Origin: Synechococcus sp. PROS-7-1
GTDB lineage: Bacteria; Cyanobacteriota; Cyanobacteriia; PCC-6307; Cyanobiaceae
Reading direction: 5' to 3'
NCBI RefSeq assembly: GCF_014279795.1
Contig: NZ_CP047945.1
Location: 2,128,572 to 2,192,571 of the forward strand
DNA: 64,000 nt
Each line of letters starts with the position of its first letter. The first letter of the stretch is position 1. The position numbers were made by a program, and so were the translations under genes. Positions 40,497 to 45,811 of the stretch are shown in pieces. The notes beneath the pieces are model-generated. The model was given only the letters and a program-made list of their open reading frames with translations, was not told where the DNA came from and did no database searches.

Positions 40497-40871
40497 TCAA
40501 TCCTGAACGTAAGGCCTTCCTTGCACGAGGCAGGCCTCAGCTTTCTGCAGTTCCCGCCCGAGATAGAGGGCATGATCAAGTCGGCTGACCGGATGAGGGC
40601 CCTCTCCTTCGGTGAGCGCAATTCCCAACTCTTTGGCTGTTCGGCCTCGGTAACAAACGGCTGGTGTGCGTTGGTTGCCGCCACGGCAGCTGAGCACCTC
40701 TCCGGTCTCGGGATCGATGGCGCGGCCTTTGGAATCAACGTCGTTCGGGAAGTGCTCGGCAACCAGCTGCCCTGCATCGGCATCGACCCGGATTAGAAAG
40801 TAGCCGCTTGGATCCAGGGCAATGAAGCGCTGGGAGAGCTGGTCATCGAGGGAAGGGGTGCCATCTGTCAT
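40497..40871 (-). CDS. DUF4346 domain protein
   Basis: 124 aa. Recognised from ALDPSGYFLIRVDADAG, DPETGEVLSCRG, RTAKELG and LDHALYLGRELQKAEACLV, which match the small cyanobacterial DUF4346 domain. In some genomes this domain is attached to pterin-binding-like proteins. The start MTDGTPSLDDQ is 18 bp from the end of the GNAT-like gene on the same strand. Convergent with the radical SAM gene by 8 bp. Function unknown. Confidence 0.75.
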   Translation of the reverse strand: MTDGTPSLDDQLSQRFIALDPSGYFLIRVDADAGQLVAEHFPNDVDSKGRAIDPETGEVLSCRGGNQRTPAVCYRGRTAKELGIALTEGEGPHPVSRLDHALYLGRELQKAEACLVQGRPYVQD

Positions 40872-40895: not shown

Positions 40896-42077
40896 TCAAC
40901 GCCCGAGGTCTGGAGGCTGGGCGCGGAACGGCAAGTCCGCATTGATGGCCTCGATCTCCTCCTGCATCAACGCATTGGCCCGAGGAAGCCAGGCGCGAAT
41001 CAGAGCATCCATCTGAGGGTCGTACCAGCGATGAAGACTGGTTCGGGCCGTGGCCACGAAACCCCTGCGGCGCTTGTGACTGCCACCAGCTCCTGGATCA
41101 AAACTCACCAACCCCTGCTGCAAAGCCCACTCAATCGGGGCGTAGTAGCAAACCTCGAAATGCAGACAATCAATCTCCTCATCACTCCCCCAGTAGCGCC
41201 CCCAGAGGTGCTGGGAATCCCTGACGCATAGCGACATGGCAATGGGATCCTCCACATCTCCACGGTGGGCATTGAACAAAACAACATGCTCAGCCAGTGA
41301 GGGGGCACAAAGCCGATCAAAAAAGGTGGCATCCAGGTACTTGCTGCCCCATGGCCCCCAACGGGCGCAATGTTGCTCGTAGAAATCGTGCATCCTGGAA
41401 ACCAAAGCGGGGGTAAGTGCGTCCCCTGTGACTGGTGTCACGGTGAGGCCCGCATCACGCACGGCCTTGCGTTCCCGTTTGATGTTGCGACGCTGATTGG
41501 CGTTAAAACCAGCCAGATAGTCGTTGAACGTTTGCTGACTGTCTGAGGACCACAAACTTTGCTGATTCAGCCAGCTGGCACAACCGGCTGCTTGCGCCAG
41601 TGGCTGCCAGGAGGGATCCACATAAAGAAAATTGCAGCTGAGAATGCCGTGTCGTGCAGCGAAGTCATCGATCAGGCCAAGCATCAGCGTGGTGATCTCC
41701 TGGGCGTCTTCGCTGGCGGCCACATGGAAGCGGTAACCCTGCACGGGGCTGACTGGGCTCATCCCGATCAGTTTCGGGTAATAACGCAGACCCAAATCAC
41801 CGGCCAAGCGCGCGAACGACTGATCAAACACAAATTCGCCATAGCTGTGACCCTTGAGATACAGAGGGGCCACGGCAACCAGCTGGTCGTCGTCCCGCCA
41901 CAACGACAGATGCAGAGGCTGCCAACCCTGATCAGGGGCCACGCTGCCGGACCGTTCCAACGCCAGCAGCCAGGTCCAGCGATAGAAGGGGCAGATCGTT
42001 TCGCCCAGCAGCTGGTCCCACTGCTCTTCAGGGATTTCGCTGATGCTTCGATGCCAGCGGGCCGAGAGCGACGCCAT
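40896..42077 (-). CDS. FemAB/GNAT-like acyltransferase (DUF482 family)
   Basis: 393 aa, two GNAT-fold halves. The family (annotated as peptidogalycan biosynthesis or DUF482) is conserved in proteobacteria and cyanobacteria; its acceptor is unknown. Typical blocks: RWTWLLALERSGS, PLYLKGHSYGEFVFD, YPKLIGMSPVSPVQGYRFHV, ANQRRNIKRERKAV, FYEQHCARWGPWGSKYL, LWGRYWGSDEEIDCLHFEVC and FDPGAGGSHKRRRGF. Starts MASLSARWHRSI. Co-directional with DUF4346, 24 bp upstream of it. Confidence 0.85.
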   Translation of the reverse strand: MASLSARWHRSISEIPEEQWDQLLGETICPFYRWTWLLALERSGSVAPDQGWQPLHLSLWRDDDQLVAVAPLYLKGHSYGEFVFDQSFARLAGDLGLRYYPKLIGMSPVSPVQGYRFHVAASEDAQEITTLMLGLIDDFAARHGILSCNFLYVDPSWQPLAQAAGCASWLNQQSLWSSDSQQTFNDYLAGFNANQRRNIKRERKAVRDAGLTVTPVTGDALTPALVSRMHDFYEQHCARWGPWGSKYLDATFFDRLCAPSLAEHVVLFNAHRGDVEDPIAMSLCVRDSQHLWGRYWGSDEEIDCLHFEVCYYAPIEWALQQGLVSFDPGAGGSHKRRRGFVATARTSLHRWYDPQMDALIRAWLPRANALMQEEIEAINADLPFRAQPPDLGR

Positions 42078-42160: not shown

Positions 42161-42622
42161 TTGATCTGGAACAGGCCCTTGCAGGTCCTGCTGATCGCCT
42201 CCTGGGCTGTTGGCATCAGCACCATGGCAATCGAAGCCAGGGCCGGACTGCTGAAGCCCTTGCTGCAGTTGATGCGGCCCAAGGTGGAGCAGCAGCTTGC
42301 CGGGGAATGCCAGCAGCTCGTCAAGCGGGCCATCGGCAGCATCGACCCGAGCTCCCTGCCTCTGGGTGAGTTGTTATCCGACATCGACGACACAGTGATG
42401 CAACCCTGTCGCGACCTGGCGCTGCCAGCCAGCGAATGCTTAATCCGCGAAGCTTCGCGCAGTGGGAGGGAACTCGGCATCTTCAGTGAACTGATCGGCG
42501 GTCGAGTGGGTGACGACACCCAAGTCGTGATCAAACGCTGCTTGGCCTCTCTTCTGGGCTTGCCGGCCACAGGCCTTCAGGACCTTCCTCTCGAAGACTT
42601 AATGCTCCGGTTACGCCGGTAA
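42161..42622 (+). CDS. Putative secreted protein, family unknown
   Basis: 153 aa from TTG; an ATG 66 nt later would remove most of the signal. The N-terminus (MIWNRPLQVLLIASWAVGIS) ending in IEARA looks like a signal peptide. The rest is all-helical, with four cysteines: ECQQLVKRA, QPCRDLAL, ECLIREASR and KRCLASLL. These could form two disulfides in the periplasm or lumen. No known domain recognised. It overlaps the RibD_C gene by 46 bp at the 3' end, tail to tail. Confidence 0.6.
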   Translation: MIWNRPLQVLLIASWAVGISTMAIEARAGLLKPLLQLMRPKVEQQLAGECQQLVKRAIGSIDPSSLPLGELLSDIDDTVMQPCRDLALPASECLIREASRSGRELGIFSELIGGRVGDDTQVVIKRCLASLLGLPATGLQDLPLEDLMLRLRR

Positions 42623-43263
42623 CGCACCAGCAGCTCACCGCCGCCGAGAGGCTTGCTGTGCTCCAGCGACCAGGCATCAGCCGCGGCCAGGTCTTCAGGG
42701 AGTCCGGGGGCTAGGGGCGGAACCCAGCAAAAAGGGCCCCCAAGAACTCGGGGGCAGAGCGTGAGTTGCAGCTCGTCAACGGCATCATCGGCCAGCATCG
42801 ATGTGCAAAGTCCAGCCCCTCCCAAGAGCACAAATCTCGACCAACCACGGGCAGCCAAGCTGGTCAGGGTCTCGGCCCACGATGCAGCAAGAGGATGGCC
42901 ATCGAGGAATCCTTCGGCACCGCCACCCTCCGGGGTCAGCAGATAACGGGCAAAGGGCTGCTGAAACAACGGCCAATCCTGAGGGAAGTCCGCTTGGCGA
43001 CTCACCACAAAAAGGTCGGGCTGTGGAGAACGACATGCGGTTTGGCGCTGCTCCAATAAATCGTGAGCATGAATCAGACAACTGGAACGATGCGCCCGCA
43101 GGGTTCCAGCTCCGATCAACGCCGCGTCCGACCAGGCCAAGGCTTCCTCCAAAGCCCTGCGATCACCGGGGCCACCAAGATGGGAAGCGCCTCCCTGGGG
43201 ATAGGCCAAACGTCCATCCAGGCTGACGGCCAGCACCAGCCTGACTGTTGTCTGATGGGTCAT
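42577..43263 (-). CDS. RibD C-terminal domain reductase
   Basis: 228 aa, the RibD_C/DHFR-like fold without the deaminase domain. VRLVLAVSLDGRLA (about 7-20), DAALIGAGTLRAHRS (about 46-60), FVLLGGAGLCTSMLADDAVDELQLTLCP (read as two parts, about 143-170) are the conserved pyrimidine-reductase segments. It may act in riboflavin or another pteridine pathway; the neighbour is a pterin synthase homologue, 12 bp upstream in the same direction. Catalytic role not proven. Confidence 0.82.
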   Translation of the reverse strand: MTHQTTVRLVLAVSLDGRLAYPQGGASHLGGPGDRRALEEALAWSDAALIGAGTLRAHRSSCLIHAHDLLEQRQTACRSPQPDLFVVSRQADFPQDWPLFQQPFARYLLTPEGGGAEGFLDGHPLAASWAETLTSLAARGWSRFVLLGGAGLCTSMLADDAVDELQLTLCPRVLGGPFCWVPPLAPGLPEDLAAADAWSLEHSKPLGGGELLVRYRRNRSIKSSRGRS

Positions 43264-43275
43264 CCAAAGACGCGA

Positions 43276-44196
43276 TCAGACCGGGGCCGCGGCTTCCAAC
43301 ATGGCTGGGGTCATTTCCAGCTGAGGTATCTCGGCGTAGACCTCAGCCGCATTGTTGGGACTTTCCTGAAGGCGCACCTTGTGGAGTTGGGCACCGATGG
43401 CCCCGACTGGCCCGGAAAGACGGTCGGAGATATGCAGAGCGATATTTTCCGCAGTGGGCACGCACTCAGCGAAGAAGGGCACATCCTTGTTGAGGAAGGT
43501 GTGATCGAAGGGCTCGACCACCAGATCATCCACAAGGCGCTGAAGCGCGGAGAGATCGCAGACCATGCCGGTGCGTGGGTCGATGGCTCCGCGCACCGTC
43601 ACATCCACCAGGTAGTTGTGGCCATGACCGTGGGGACGGGCACATTTGCCGTAGATGCGCTCGTTCTCTTCCTGGCTCAGCTCCGGTCTTGCAAGACGGT
43701 GGGCTGCAGCGAAGTGGGTGCGGATGGTGAGGAAGGCGTCCATGGGATGTCCGAGGTAGTCGGCCCAGAGGCCCGGTTGTTCATAAAGGCGCAGTGCCGT
43801 GATCGGCAAATGCGGTGCAAGACGCTGCCAGATGCGCTGTACAAGCGCTTCGGTGGTGGGCAGGCAACCTTCTGGTCTTGACACATCAAAATCCGACCAG
43901 GCGTCGTTCAGGAATCGGAAATTGAGCTGATCGGTGACCTCTTTGCGAATGGCGTGCTTCACCTCGGAGAGATTGAGCACCATGCCATCGGCATCAAGGT
44001 CACCAGCCATCGACACGATGAGCTCGTAGTTGTGCCCATGACCGGGAGCCAGCGCACAGGCACCAAATCGCGCCGCGTTGTCATCAGCAGAGAGTTCCGG
44101 CAACCAGTAGCGATGACTGGCGCTGAAACAGGCTCGGCGGGTGATCACACATCCGCGGCCCTGGCCGTGCCGGGCGATCGACTTCGTTTCAGTCAT
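43276..44196 (-). CDS. Tandem 6-pyruvoyl-tetrahydropterin synthase/QueD-like protein
   Basis: 306 aa, two PTPS domains where most enzymes have one (about 130 aa). Domain 1 (about 17-145): zinc His28, His53, His55 (SASHRY, PGHGHNY) and Cys47. Domain 2 (about 155-295): His166, His191, His193 (AAAHR, HGHGHNY) and Cys185. The conserved Asp-His of the catalytic relay is present in domain 2 (PFDHTFLN) but replaced by Asn92-Phe93 in domain 1 (QLNFRFLN). The pterin-anchoring Glu is kept in both (LYEQPG, LQESPN). Marine Synechococcus make pteridines, and the gene adjoins a RibD_C reductase. Confidence 0.9.
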   Translation of the reverse strand: MTETKSIARHGQGRGCVITRRACFSASHRYWLPELSADDNAARFGACALAPGHGHNYELIVSMAGDLDADGMVLNLSEVKHAIRKEVTDQLNFRFLNDAWSDFDVSRPEGCLPTTEALVQRIWQRLAPHLPITALRLYEQPGLWADYLGHPMDAFLTIRTHFAAAHRLARPELSQEENERIYGKCARPHGHGHNYLVDVTVRGAIDPRTGMVCDLSALQRLVDDLVVEPFDHTFLNKDVPFFAECVPTAENIALHISDRLSGPVGAIGAQLHKVRLQESPNNAAEVYAEIPQLEMTPAMLEAAAPV

Positions 44197-44247: not shown

Positions 44248-44823
44248 ATGCTGGATCCCGTCCTATCCCTCAGACAGCGGCTCGGCGGCCGCAACCTGTA
44301 TCTCGTCGGGATGATGGGGAGCGGCAAAACCAGCACTGGTCGGCCCCTCGCCCAACGCTTGCAGTACGGCTTTGTGGATGCCGATGCCGTGATTGAGCAG
44401 GCCGCTGGCTGCACCATTCCAGACATCTTCACGCGCGATGGTGAAAGCGGTTTCCGAAGCCTGGAGACCCAGGTGCTCAACGCGATTAGTCAGCGCCACT
44501 CCCTCGTTGTGGCCACTGGCGGCGGCGCGGTGACCCGCCCTGAAAACTGGGGGGCGATGCACCAGGGGATCGTGATCTGGCTGGACGTCAAGCACCAAGA
44601 GCTCTTGAGGCGACTGGAGCAGGACGACACCCCTCGCCCCCTTCTGCAGGAACAGGAGCCTGCCATGGTCTTGAACAGGCTCTTGACGGCACGTCGGCCG
44701 ATGTACGCAGAAGCCGATCTCACCGTGGTCATCGATGCTGAGCCACCGGATGAGGTGGCAGACGGGATTCTGAAATTGCTGCCAACGCTGATCCAAGACC
44801 CACCGAAACAGCGACCCGATTGA
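44248..44823 (+). CDS. aroK: Shikimate kinase
   Basis: Phosphorylates shikimate at C3 in aromatic amino acid synthesis. 191 aa. Walker [12 protein letters not shown] (residues 21-31), DADAVIE with the shikimate-binding Asp (about 44), FRSLETQVL (Arg and Glu contacts) and VATGGGAV (about 88-95); lid segment DDTPRPLL follows. ATG 24 bp after the conserved pterin gene's divergent start region. Confidence 0.95.
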
Positions 44824-44826
44824 CCA

Positions 44827-45090
44827 TCAGCTCCGAGGCGGTTCCAGACGGACGGCATACCACTGCACGCAAACCCCTGCTGAGATCTCCAGTTCACAGG
44901 CGGTGTCGAGCAGGCGCTCTGCGGCTTCGGTTGCACCGTCGCATCCACGCAGATCCTCCGGCCATGGATCGAGCGCCATCAGTCGATCAACCAGCCATGA
45001 CAAGGTGGCGGCGGCTGATAGAAGCTGTTCAGATTCACCGGGAACAAGCACCACGTAGTGATCAAGCGATCGGATCAGGGGGTCTGACAT
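44827..45090 (-). CDS. Hypothetical protein
   Basis: 87 aa from MSDPLIRSLDHYVVL. Soluble, acidic, probably alpha/beta: DHYVVLVPGESEQLLSAAATL, WLVDRLMALDPWPEDLRGCD and ISAGVCVQWYAVRLEPP. No family recognised. Its start codon overlaps that of the divergent secreted protein by 2 nt (shared CATG at 45088-45091), and its end faces aroK with a 3-bp gap. The frame is open to 45123 but that would intrude on the neighbour. Confidence 0.6.
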   Translation of the reverse strand: MSDPLIRSLDHYVVLVPGESEQLLSAAATLSWLVDRLMALDPWPEDLRGCDGATEAAERLLDTACELEISAGVCVQWYAVRLEPPRS

Positions 45091-45811
45091 GAAGCGGTGG
45101 CTCTTAAGTGTGCTGTTCAGCATGCTGCTGCAGCTGCTGGTGGTGATGGGTGCGGACGCTGCAGAACCAGCCCAGGCATCCCTGCTGGAGCAACGCGCGA
45201 TGGAATGGCCCGAGTGGTCGCTGCCAGCACCTCTCCCCCGGCCGCGTGCCCGTCAAGATCTGATTTATCCCGACTGGTTCGAGGGGGACTGGCAGGTGCA
45301 AAGCGACACGCTCGACCCTGATGGTTCCCGTCTAAAGAACGAATCCACGCTGCTTCACAGGGCACGCTTCAAACGCAATCAGGCGGGGGAGCTGGTCGGC
45401 GACCGACCCTTCAACGCCACAGCCATCGGCAAAGCGCTGCTGGGGGATGCGCTGCTGTCGGTCGAGCAGGATCCAGAGCGTGTCAACCGTCAACTGGCGA
45501 GGCTCAGCGACGATGTTCTGCTGGAAACCAGCGTGATCGGCCGCCGTCAGGGTGTCGTGTCAACAGAAAGCGGCAGGGAACGATTCTTGAGTGACGAGCT
45601 CGTGCTCCAGATCGTGCATGGCCCGGGGGCACCCCGACTGAGCAGAATCGAAACGTTGACGCGCTATGAACAGTGCGAGGCAGGAATCTGTACTGATCAG
45701 CGCCAGGTGAGTTACGGGGCTCCTGGGTTGCAGACGGATCAAACCCTCGCAGGGCGGAGCAGCCGATTTCGGCTAGTTCTCACTCGGTTACCGCAGGATC
45801 CCGCTGGATGA
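45089..45811 (+). CDS. Secreted or lumenal protein, DUF6816-like
   Basis: 240 aa. Signal peptide MKRWLLSVLFSMLLQLLVVM with cleavage near GADAAEP. The mature part has conserved-looking blocks LIYPDWFEGDWQVQSDTLD, RARFKRNQAGELVGDRPFNA, AIGKALLGDALLSVEQDP and RIETLTRYEQCEAGICTDQR. I associate them with a cyanobacterial/plastid family of unknown function (DUF6816-type, from memory). Start overlaps the divergent hypothetical gene's start; end overlaps the GST gene by 32 bp, tail to tail. Confidence 0.65.
   Translation: MKRWLLSVLFSMLLQLLVVMGADAAEPAQASLLEQRAMEWPEWSLPAPLPRPRARQDLIYPDWFEGDWQVQSDTLDPDGSRLKNESTLLHRARFKRNQAGELVGDRPFNATAIGKALLGDALLSVEQDPERVNRQLARLSDDVLLETSVIGRRQGVVSTESGRERFLSDELVLQIVHGPGAPRLSRIETLTRYEQCEAGICTDQRQVSYGAPGLQTDQTLAGRSSRFRLVLTRLPQDPAG

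Follow-up and report, generated by a model that had tools for sequence, protein, structure and literature searches.

A RibD_C-fold reductase encoded beside a bimodular pterin synthase as a candidate for the missing dihydrofolate reductase of cyanobacteria

A stand-alone RibD_C-fold protein of Synechococcus sp. PROS-7-1 is a candidate for the missing dihydrofolate reductase (DHFR) of cyanobacteria and, judged from its sequence and distribution, it is probably that enzyme. Records of a DHFR missing from Prochlorococcus and most cyanobacteria go back to at least 2007 (PMC1971073). The gene was met in the window, i.e. the whole stretch of 64,000 nucleotides that was analysed, as the neighbour of a tandem 6-pyruvoyltetrahydropterin synthase (PTPS) gene, and it is this neighbour, a likely DHFR consistent with an Rv2671-like function, that forms the main interest of the locus. 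Our explanation has two parts, a bimodular PTPS in which domain 2 would be catalytic and a RibD_C protein that would act as DHFR, and we consider it rather probable that both are right.

The tandem PTPS and its two halves

The PTPS gene, its parts and its upstream neighbour are located in the window as follows.

43276..44196, minus strand: bimodular 6-pyruvoyltetrahydropterin synthase (PTPS-II type), 306 aa, with two PF01242 stretches
43756..44154, minus strand: PTPS domain 1, about residues 15-147, the putative pseudo-catalytic half, which keeps the zinc histidines, Cys47, TTE and Glu139 but not the relay His
43333..43737, minus strand: PTPS domain 2, about residues 154-288; catalytic set C185, H166/H191/H193, D231-H232, T248/E250 and E278 complete
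43918..43923, minus strand: codons of Asn92-Phe93, at the place of the catalytic Asp-His in domain 1
43501..43506, minus strand: codons of Asp231-His232, the catalytic relay of domain 2, invariant in 150/150 sequences
44248..44823, plus strand: shikimate kinase gene aroK (PF01202), divergent upstream neighbour of PTPS in 51/51 loci of the family

Against Pfam PF01242 the tandem ORF reaches 195.5 bits (cut-off 22.4; whole-protein E 3e-58) in two stretches; aligned with each other over 137 residues, the halves show 35% identity. The tandem was found in 95/95 near-complete genomes of the family (Cyanobiaceae), so it is not a product of chance, and in 236 of the 242 genomes of the class. The AlphaFold model of one chain (pLDDT 91.3, pTM 0.86) is confident and gives domain 1 strands and helices; in it six residues connect the last strand of domain 1 to the first strand of domain 2. 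Some family members (L058, L059) have an insertion that separates the two domains, amounting to ∼20 residues in L058. The source genome encodes a second PTPS-family protein, L002 (G000:C1:794037-794438), which is divergent and single-domain; the canonical QueD motif was not found in it, and it has HGY in place of HGH. A homologue of CRR7 (chlororespiratory reduction 7) is located near aroK (window 44827-45123).

An earlier note on this DNA had described the halves as unequal, with Asn92-Phe93 in domain 1 where domain 2 has Asp-His, and this was borne out in the window ORF, where the relay site reads EPFDHTFLN in domain 2 (D231-H232) and DQLNFRFLN in domain 1 (N92-F93). As was also claimed, both halves of the window protein have three zinc-type histidines (H28/H53/H55; H166/H191/H193) and the cysteine (C47; C185). 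Conservation was surveyed in 150 tandem PTPS sequences, made up of 50 from the family and 20 from the remaining families of its class, together with 80 named cyanobacterial loci. S. elongatus is not among these 80 loci, and the tie to the published PCC 7942 enzyme is one of literature only.

In domain 2, Cys185, H166/H191/H193, D231, H232, T248, E250 and E278 never vary, and all 150 sequences have the full set of C-x5-HGH zinc/cysteine motif, Asp-His relay, TxE and anchor Glu. Domain 1 does not have this set in any of the 150, since its relay position 93 is always aromatic (Phe 141, Tyr 9, His 0). Its H28/H53/H55, T115, E116 and E139 are kept throughout (150/150), but Cys47 is replaced by Thr or Gly in 13 sequences, all outside the family, so that retention of the zinc histidines holds across the survey and that of the cysteine does not. 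At position 92, 135 of the 150 sequences have Asp, 14 have Asn and one has Ala. Because Asp is so prevalent here, Asn92 is a local variant of a class-wide Asp-aromatic signature; what is conserved of the proposed Asn-Phe substitution is the loss of His to an aromatic residue, not the Asn. Since the relay His is absent from all 150 sequences, its loss is older than the radiation of these cyanobacteria. Alignment with characterised enzymes, as the note had suggested, placed domain 2 with human and rat PTPS (3i2b, 1gtq, 1b66; 44-45% identity, E ∼1e-33, fold TM 0.91-0.92), which have the same C-x5-HGH, DH, TxE and Glu set.

The RibD_C neighbour

The following features belong to the RibD_C gene and its downstream surroundings.

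42577..43263, minus strand: stand-alone RibD_C-fold reductase (PF01872), 228 aa, proposed dihydrofolate reductase
43069..43098, minus strand: RibD_C residues 56-65 (RAHRSSCLIH), the site of the riboflavin-reductase motif A-D-[DN]-P-x-L-T-x-R
40896..42077, minus strand: FemAB_like protein (PF04339), conserved neighbour of RibD_C across the class
40497..40871, minus strand: PterinBD-DUF4346 protein (PF14251), a further conserved neighbour

The RibD_C gene starts exactly 12 bp past the PTPS stop, in agreement with the distance given earlier, and at all 51 family loci examined it comes directly after PTPS in the same orientation. RibD_C-domain matches are present in all near-complete family genomes, nearly always as a full-length RibD together with the stand-alone protein beside PTPS, and a full bifunctional RibD was found in every genome checked. 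The window protein scores 77.9 bits against Pfam PF01872, and Foldseek also identified the RibD_C fold. Its best PDB match by sequence is Rv2671 of Mycobacterium tuberculosis (4xrb, E 2.7e-10), while the best fold match of the model (pLDDT 93.6) is the dihydropteroate complex of the same protein (4xt4, E 2.9e-16); by global TM the archaeal riboflavin reductase Rib7 (0.79) lies slightly above Rv2671 (0.74). Scores against the curated NCBIfam models (archaeal RED, ribD_Cterm) are all far below cut-off, and the PRK14059 pyrimidine-reductase family models give 75 bits, below their cut-off of 184. For RibD_C proteins outside the family, archaeal riboflavin-reductase/RibD models outscore the Rv2671-like one, all of them below cut-offs. 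The riboflavin substrate motif [DN][DN]PxLT occurs in 0/72 stand-alone RibD_C proteins compared to 10/10 cyanobacterial RibD.

Adjacency of PTPS and RibD_C is a feature of the family and occurs only occasionally elsewhere, the wider neighbours of RibD_C being FemAB_like and DUF4346. FemAB_like lies beside RibD_C at 45/51 family loci and 20/29 distant loci, and a DUF4346 gene was found at 10 distant loci. DUF4346 proteins weakly resemble MtrA and a dihydropteroate-synthase-like protein (NF002128, TIGR00284, below cut-off), a likeness that hints at pterin or folate chemistry without proving it. Between RibD_C and FemAB_like a 153-aa ORF (window 42161-42622, plus strand) overlaps the 3' end of RibD_C; it has no family match.

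Distribution of folA and RibD_C

With the PF00186 DHFR_1 profile folA was found in none of 61 family genomes, i.e. the source genome (G000) and 60 relatives. For the folate context, DHPS is present in the source genome and ThyX in the family. FolM/PTR1 was considered as DHFR of the source genome and rejected, as the best three SDRs reach at most 101 bits compared to 321.7 for TIGR02685 and have TGX3GXG, not TGX3RXG.

In the survey of the class (242 genomes; E <1e-30 for strong folA, 28 genomes; E ≤1e-15 for RibD_C, 215 genomes), 204 genomes have RibD_C only, 17 folA only, 11 both and 10 neither. The 17 folA-only genomes belong to 11 genera of 9 families. The two genes replace one another across the class: 17 genomes are shared between the 28 that have strong folA and the 27 that lack RibD_C (Fisher p 2e-12, a value that ignores kinship on the full tree). 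Within the three families that vary, an exact test on genera with the families as strata gave p 2.2e-5, with genus counts read by hand, the broken RibD_C of G234 taken as absent, and survey thresholds and family strata chosen after the data had been seen. Four of the folA-only genomes (G158, G163, G248, G272) have RibD and no second RibD_C in RibD scans. The folA-positive genome G234, entered under "both" in the above counts, has a frameshifted and truncated RibD_C relic (L229:3746-4121) that FemAB_like and DUF4346 still adjoin. Among the ten genomes with neither gene, G292 and G349 have divergent stand-alone RibD_C proteins of 229-243 aa. G154, a single-contig genome of 4.4 Mb, has no tandem PTPS, RibD_C paralogue or folA.

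An in-place swap of RibD_C for folA was rejected, since hardly any of the genes around folA are also found around RibD_C; folA therefore entered elsewhere. Demand by ThyA was likewise dismissed as cause of the distribution, because ThyA matches (27 genomes, for the most part proteins of ∼500 aa) do not track folA. Scattered cyanobacteria have ∼500-aa proteins in which a thymidylate-synthase domain matches over about half of the profile, with no relation to folA.

Discussion

According to the literature FolA is present in only ∼15% of cyanobacteria, the DHFR step being unclear in the rest, and marine picocyanobacterial isolates are without DHFR genes. Prochlorococcus has no recognisable DHFR (PMC1971073), and as of 2026 the cyanobacterial DHFR step is still unclear (PMC12903740). 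With a single conserved RibD_C candidate, linked to the absence of folA both by its reciprocal occurrence across many lineages and by a relic in decay, the missing DHFR becomes testable. We propose dihydrofolate reduction as the role of RibD_C because its distribution follows the absence of folA and not PTPS. The protein would be a reductase of the DHFR fold that presumably uses NADPH and has departed from riboflavin synthesis; most likely it reduces dihydrofolate to tetrahydrofolate, as Rv2671 can, and fills the step left by the absence of folA. It is in this sense that we infer its cofactor, substrate and activity. Counted against a DHFR function are the ten genomes with neither strong RibD_C nor folA, the eleven with both and the slightly higher TM to Rib7, and a reductase of another kind might also fill the step. 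For the class as a whole, we lean slightly towards a reading in which most cyanobacteria, marine Synechococcus and Prochlorococcus among them, would make tetrahydrofolate by a RibD_C-fold reductase that replaced FolA or was repeatedly replaced by it. In picocyanobacteria this reductase would be encoded together with a bimodular pterin synthase that has a fixed pseudoenzyme as its first half.

Among the closest known systems is Rv2671, which is also a stand-alone RibD_C fold without the riboflavin substrate motif. However, identity is only ∼25%, and Rv2671 coexists with DfrA, whereas cyanobacterial RibD_C is mostly found where folA is missing. Rv2671 is a weak DHFR and is not the DHFR that M. 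tuberculosis uses upon loss of thyA (PMC10812664). Archaeal and fungal Rib7 and the reductase domain of bacterial RibD have the same fold as RibD_C (TM up to 0.80), but differ from the 72 stand-alone proteins in having A-D-[DN]-P-x-L-T.

This shared fold and Pfam family, together with the NCBIfam matches to archaeal RED and ribD_Cterm, could make RibD_C a second pyrimidine reductase of the riboflavin pathway. We regard this as very improbable, since all NCBIfam scores remain below cut-off and the reciprocity with folA would be left unexplained; given the full RibD elsewhere in every genome checked and the substrate motif missing in 72/72, RibD_C is most probably not the riboflavin reductase. 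Another role is suggested by the gene order: being encoded directly downstream of PTPS on one strand at all 51 family loci, and with the pterin-type Rv2671 as nearest relative, RibD_C might act on the PTPS product as a reductase of the tetrahydrobiopterin pathway (6-pyruvoyltetrahydropterin or sepiapterin reductase). Outside the family, however, the association with PTPS is sporadic and FemAB_like and DUF4346 are the wider neighbours, and six folA-positive genomes without RibD_C (G158, G175, G193, G248, G332, G356) keep PTPS. As PTPS is retained where RibD_C was lost, RibD_C is no fixed part of biopterin synthesis, and we consider this role unlikely. The short pteridine-modification pathway suggested in the earlier note is therefore upheld insofar as RibD_C resembles a pterin reductase, but the protein tracks the absence of folA and not PTPS.

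On its residues, the tandem protein is an ordinary PTPS with one catalytic and one putatively pseudo-catalytic half, an arrangement fixed across cyanobacteria. Domain 2 is predicted to supply the Cys/Asp-His/zinc/Glu set and to convert dihydroneopterin triphosphate to 6-pyruvoyltetrahydropterin. Domain 1 keeps its zinc and pterin-anchor residues but had given up the relay His by the time the class radiated, and it may now act as a structural, allosteric or ligand-binding partner, a role that we infer alongside the observed residue pattern. One catalytic and one structural or regulatory half, as proposed in the note, is thus the best fit, with the inequality fixed through the class. Human and rat PTPS are single-domain homohexamers in which every subunit is catalytic, unlike the tandem protein. 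In rat PTPS zinc, Cys and anchor Glu are provided by one subunit and the relay His by another. A composite site could accordingly be imagined, in which Asp231-His232 of domain 2 completes the zinc/Cys site of domain 1, where the true active site would then lie. The strict conservation of the domain 1 zinc histidines, TTE and Glu139 would suit such a site, but Cys47 gives way to Thr or Gly in 13/150 sequences, yet Cys185 and Asp231-His232 never vary. Since Cys47 is freely lost while the latter are absolute, catalysis most likely joins the Cys of one domain 2 to the relay of a second domain 2, and the composite site appears distinctly unlikely. That domain 1 retains its zinc and pterin-anchor residues perfectly, yet has no relay, might also indicate that it is neofunctionalised and binds or transforms a different pterin, but such residues may serve folding or a shared inter-domain site, and we hold this to be quite improbable. 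With domain 2 as the catalytic half, the PTPS is a clean example of a core enzyme, seemingly essential, in which a pseudo-catalytic half has become fixed throughout a class.

Bimodular PTPS from cyanobacteria is reportedly active in vitro, as recombinant protein of PCC 7942, and bimodular forms are said to be mostly cyanobacterial. A cyanobacterial PTPS-II with two PTPS domains, like the window protein, has already been published (Kong et al. 2006, FEBS Lett 580:4900), and PTPS paralogues of PCC 7942 are treated in PMC5041015. The PTPS half of our finding is thus known in kind, and the fixed class-wide asymmetry of its domains is documented here.
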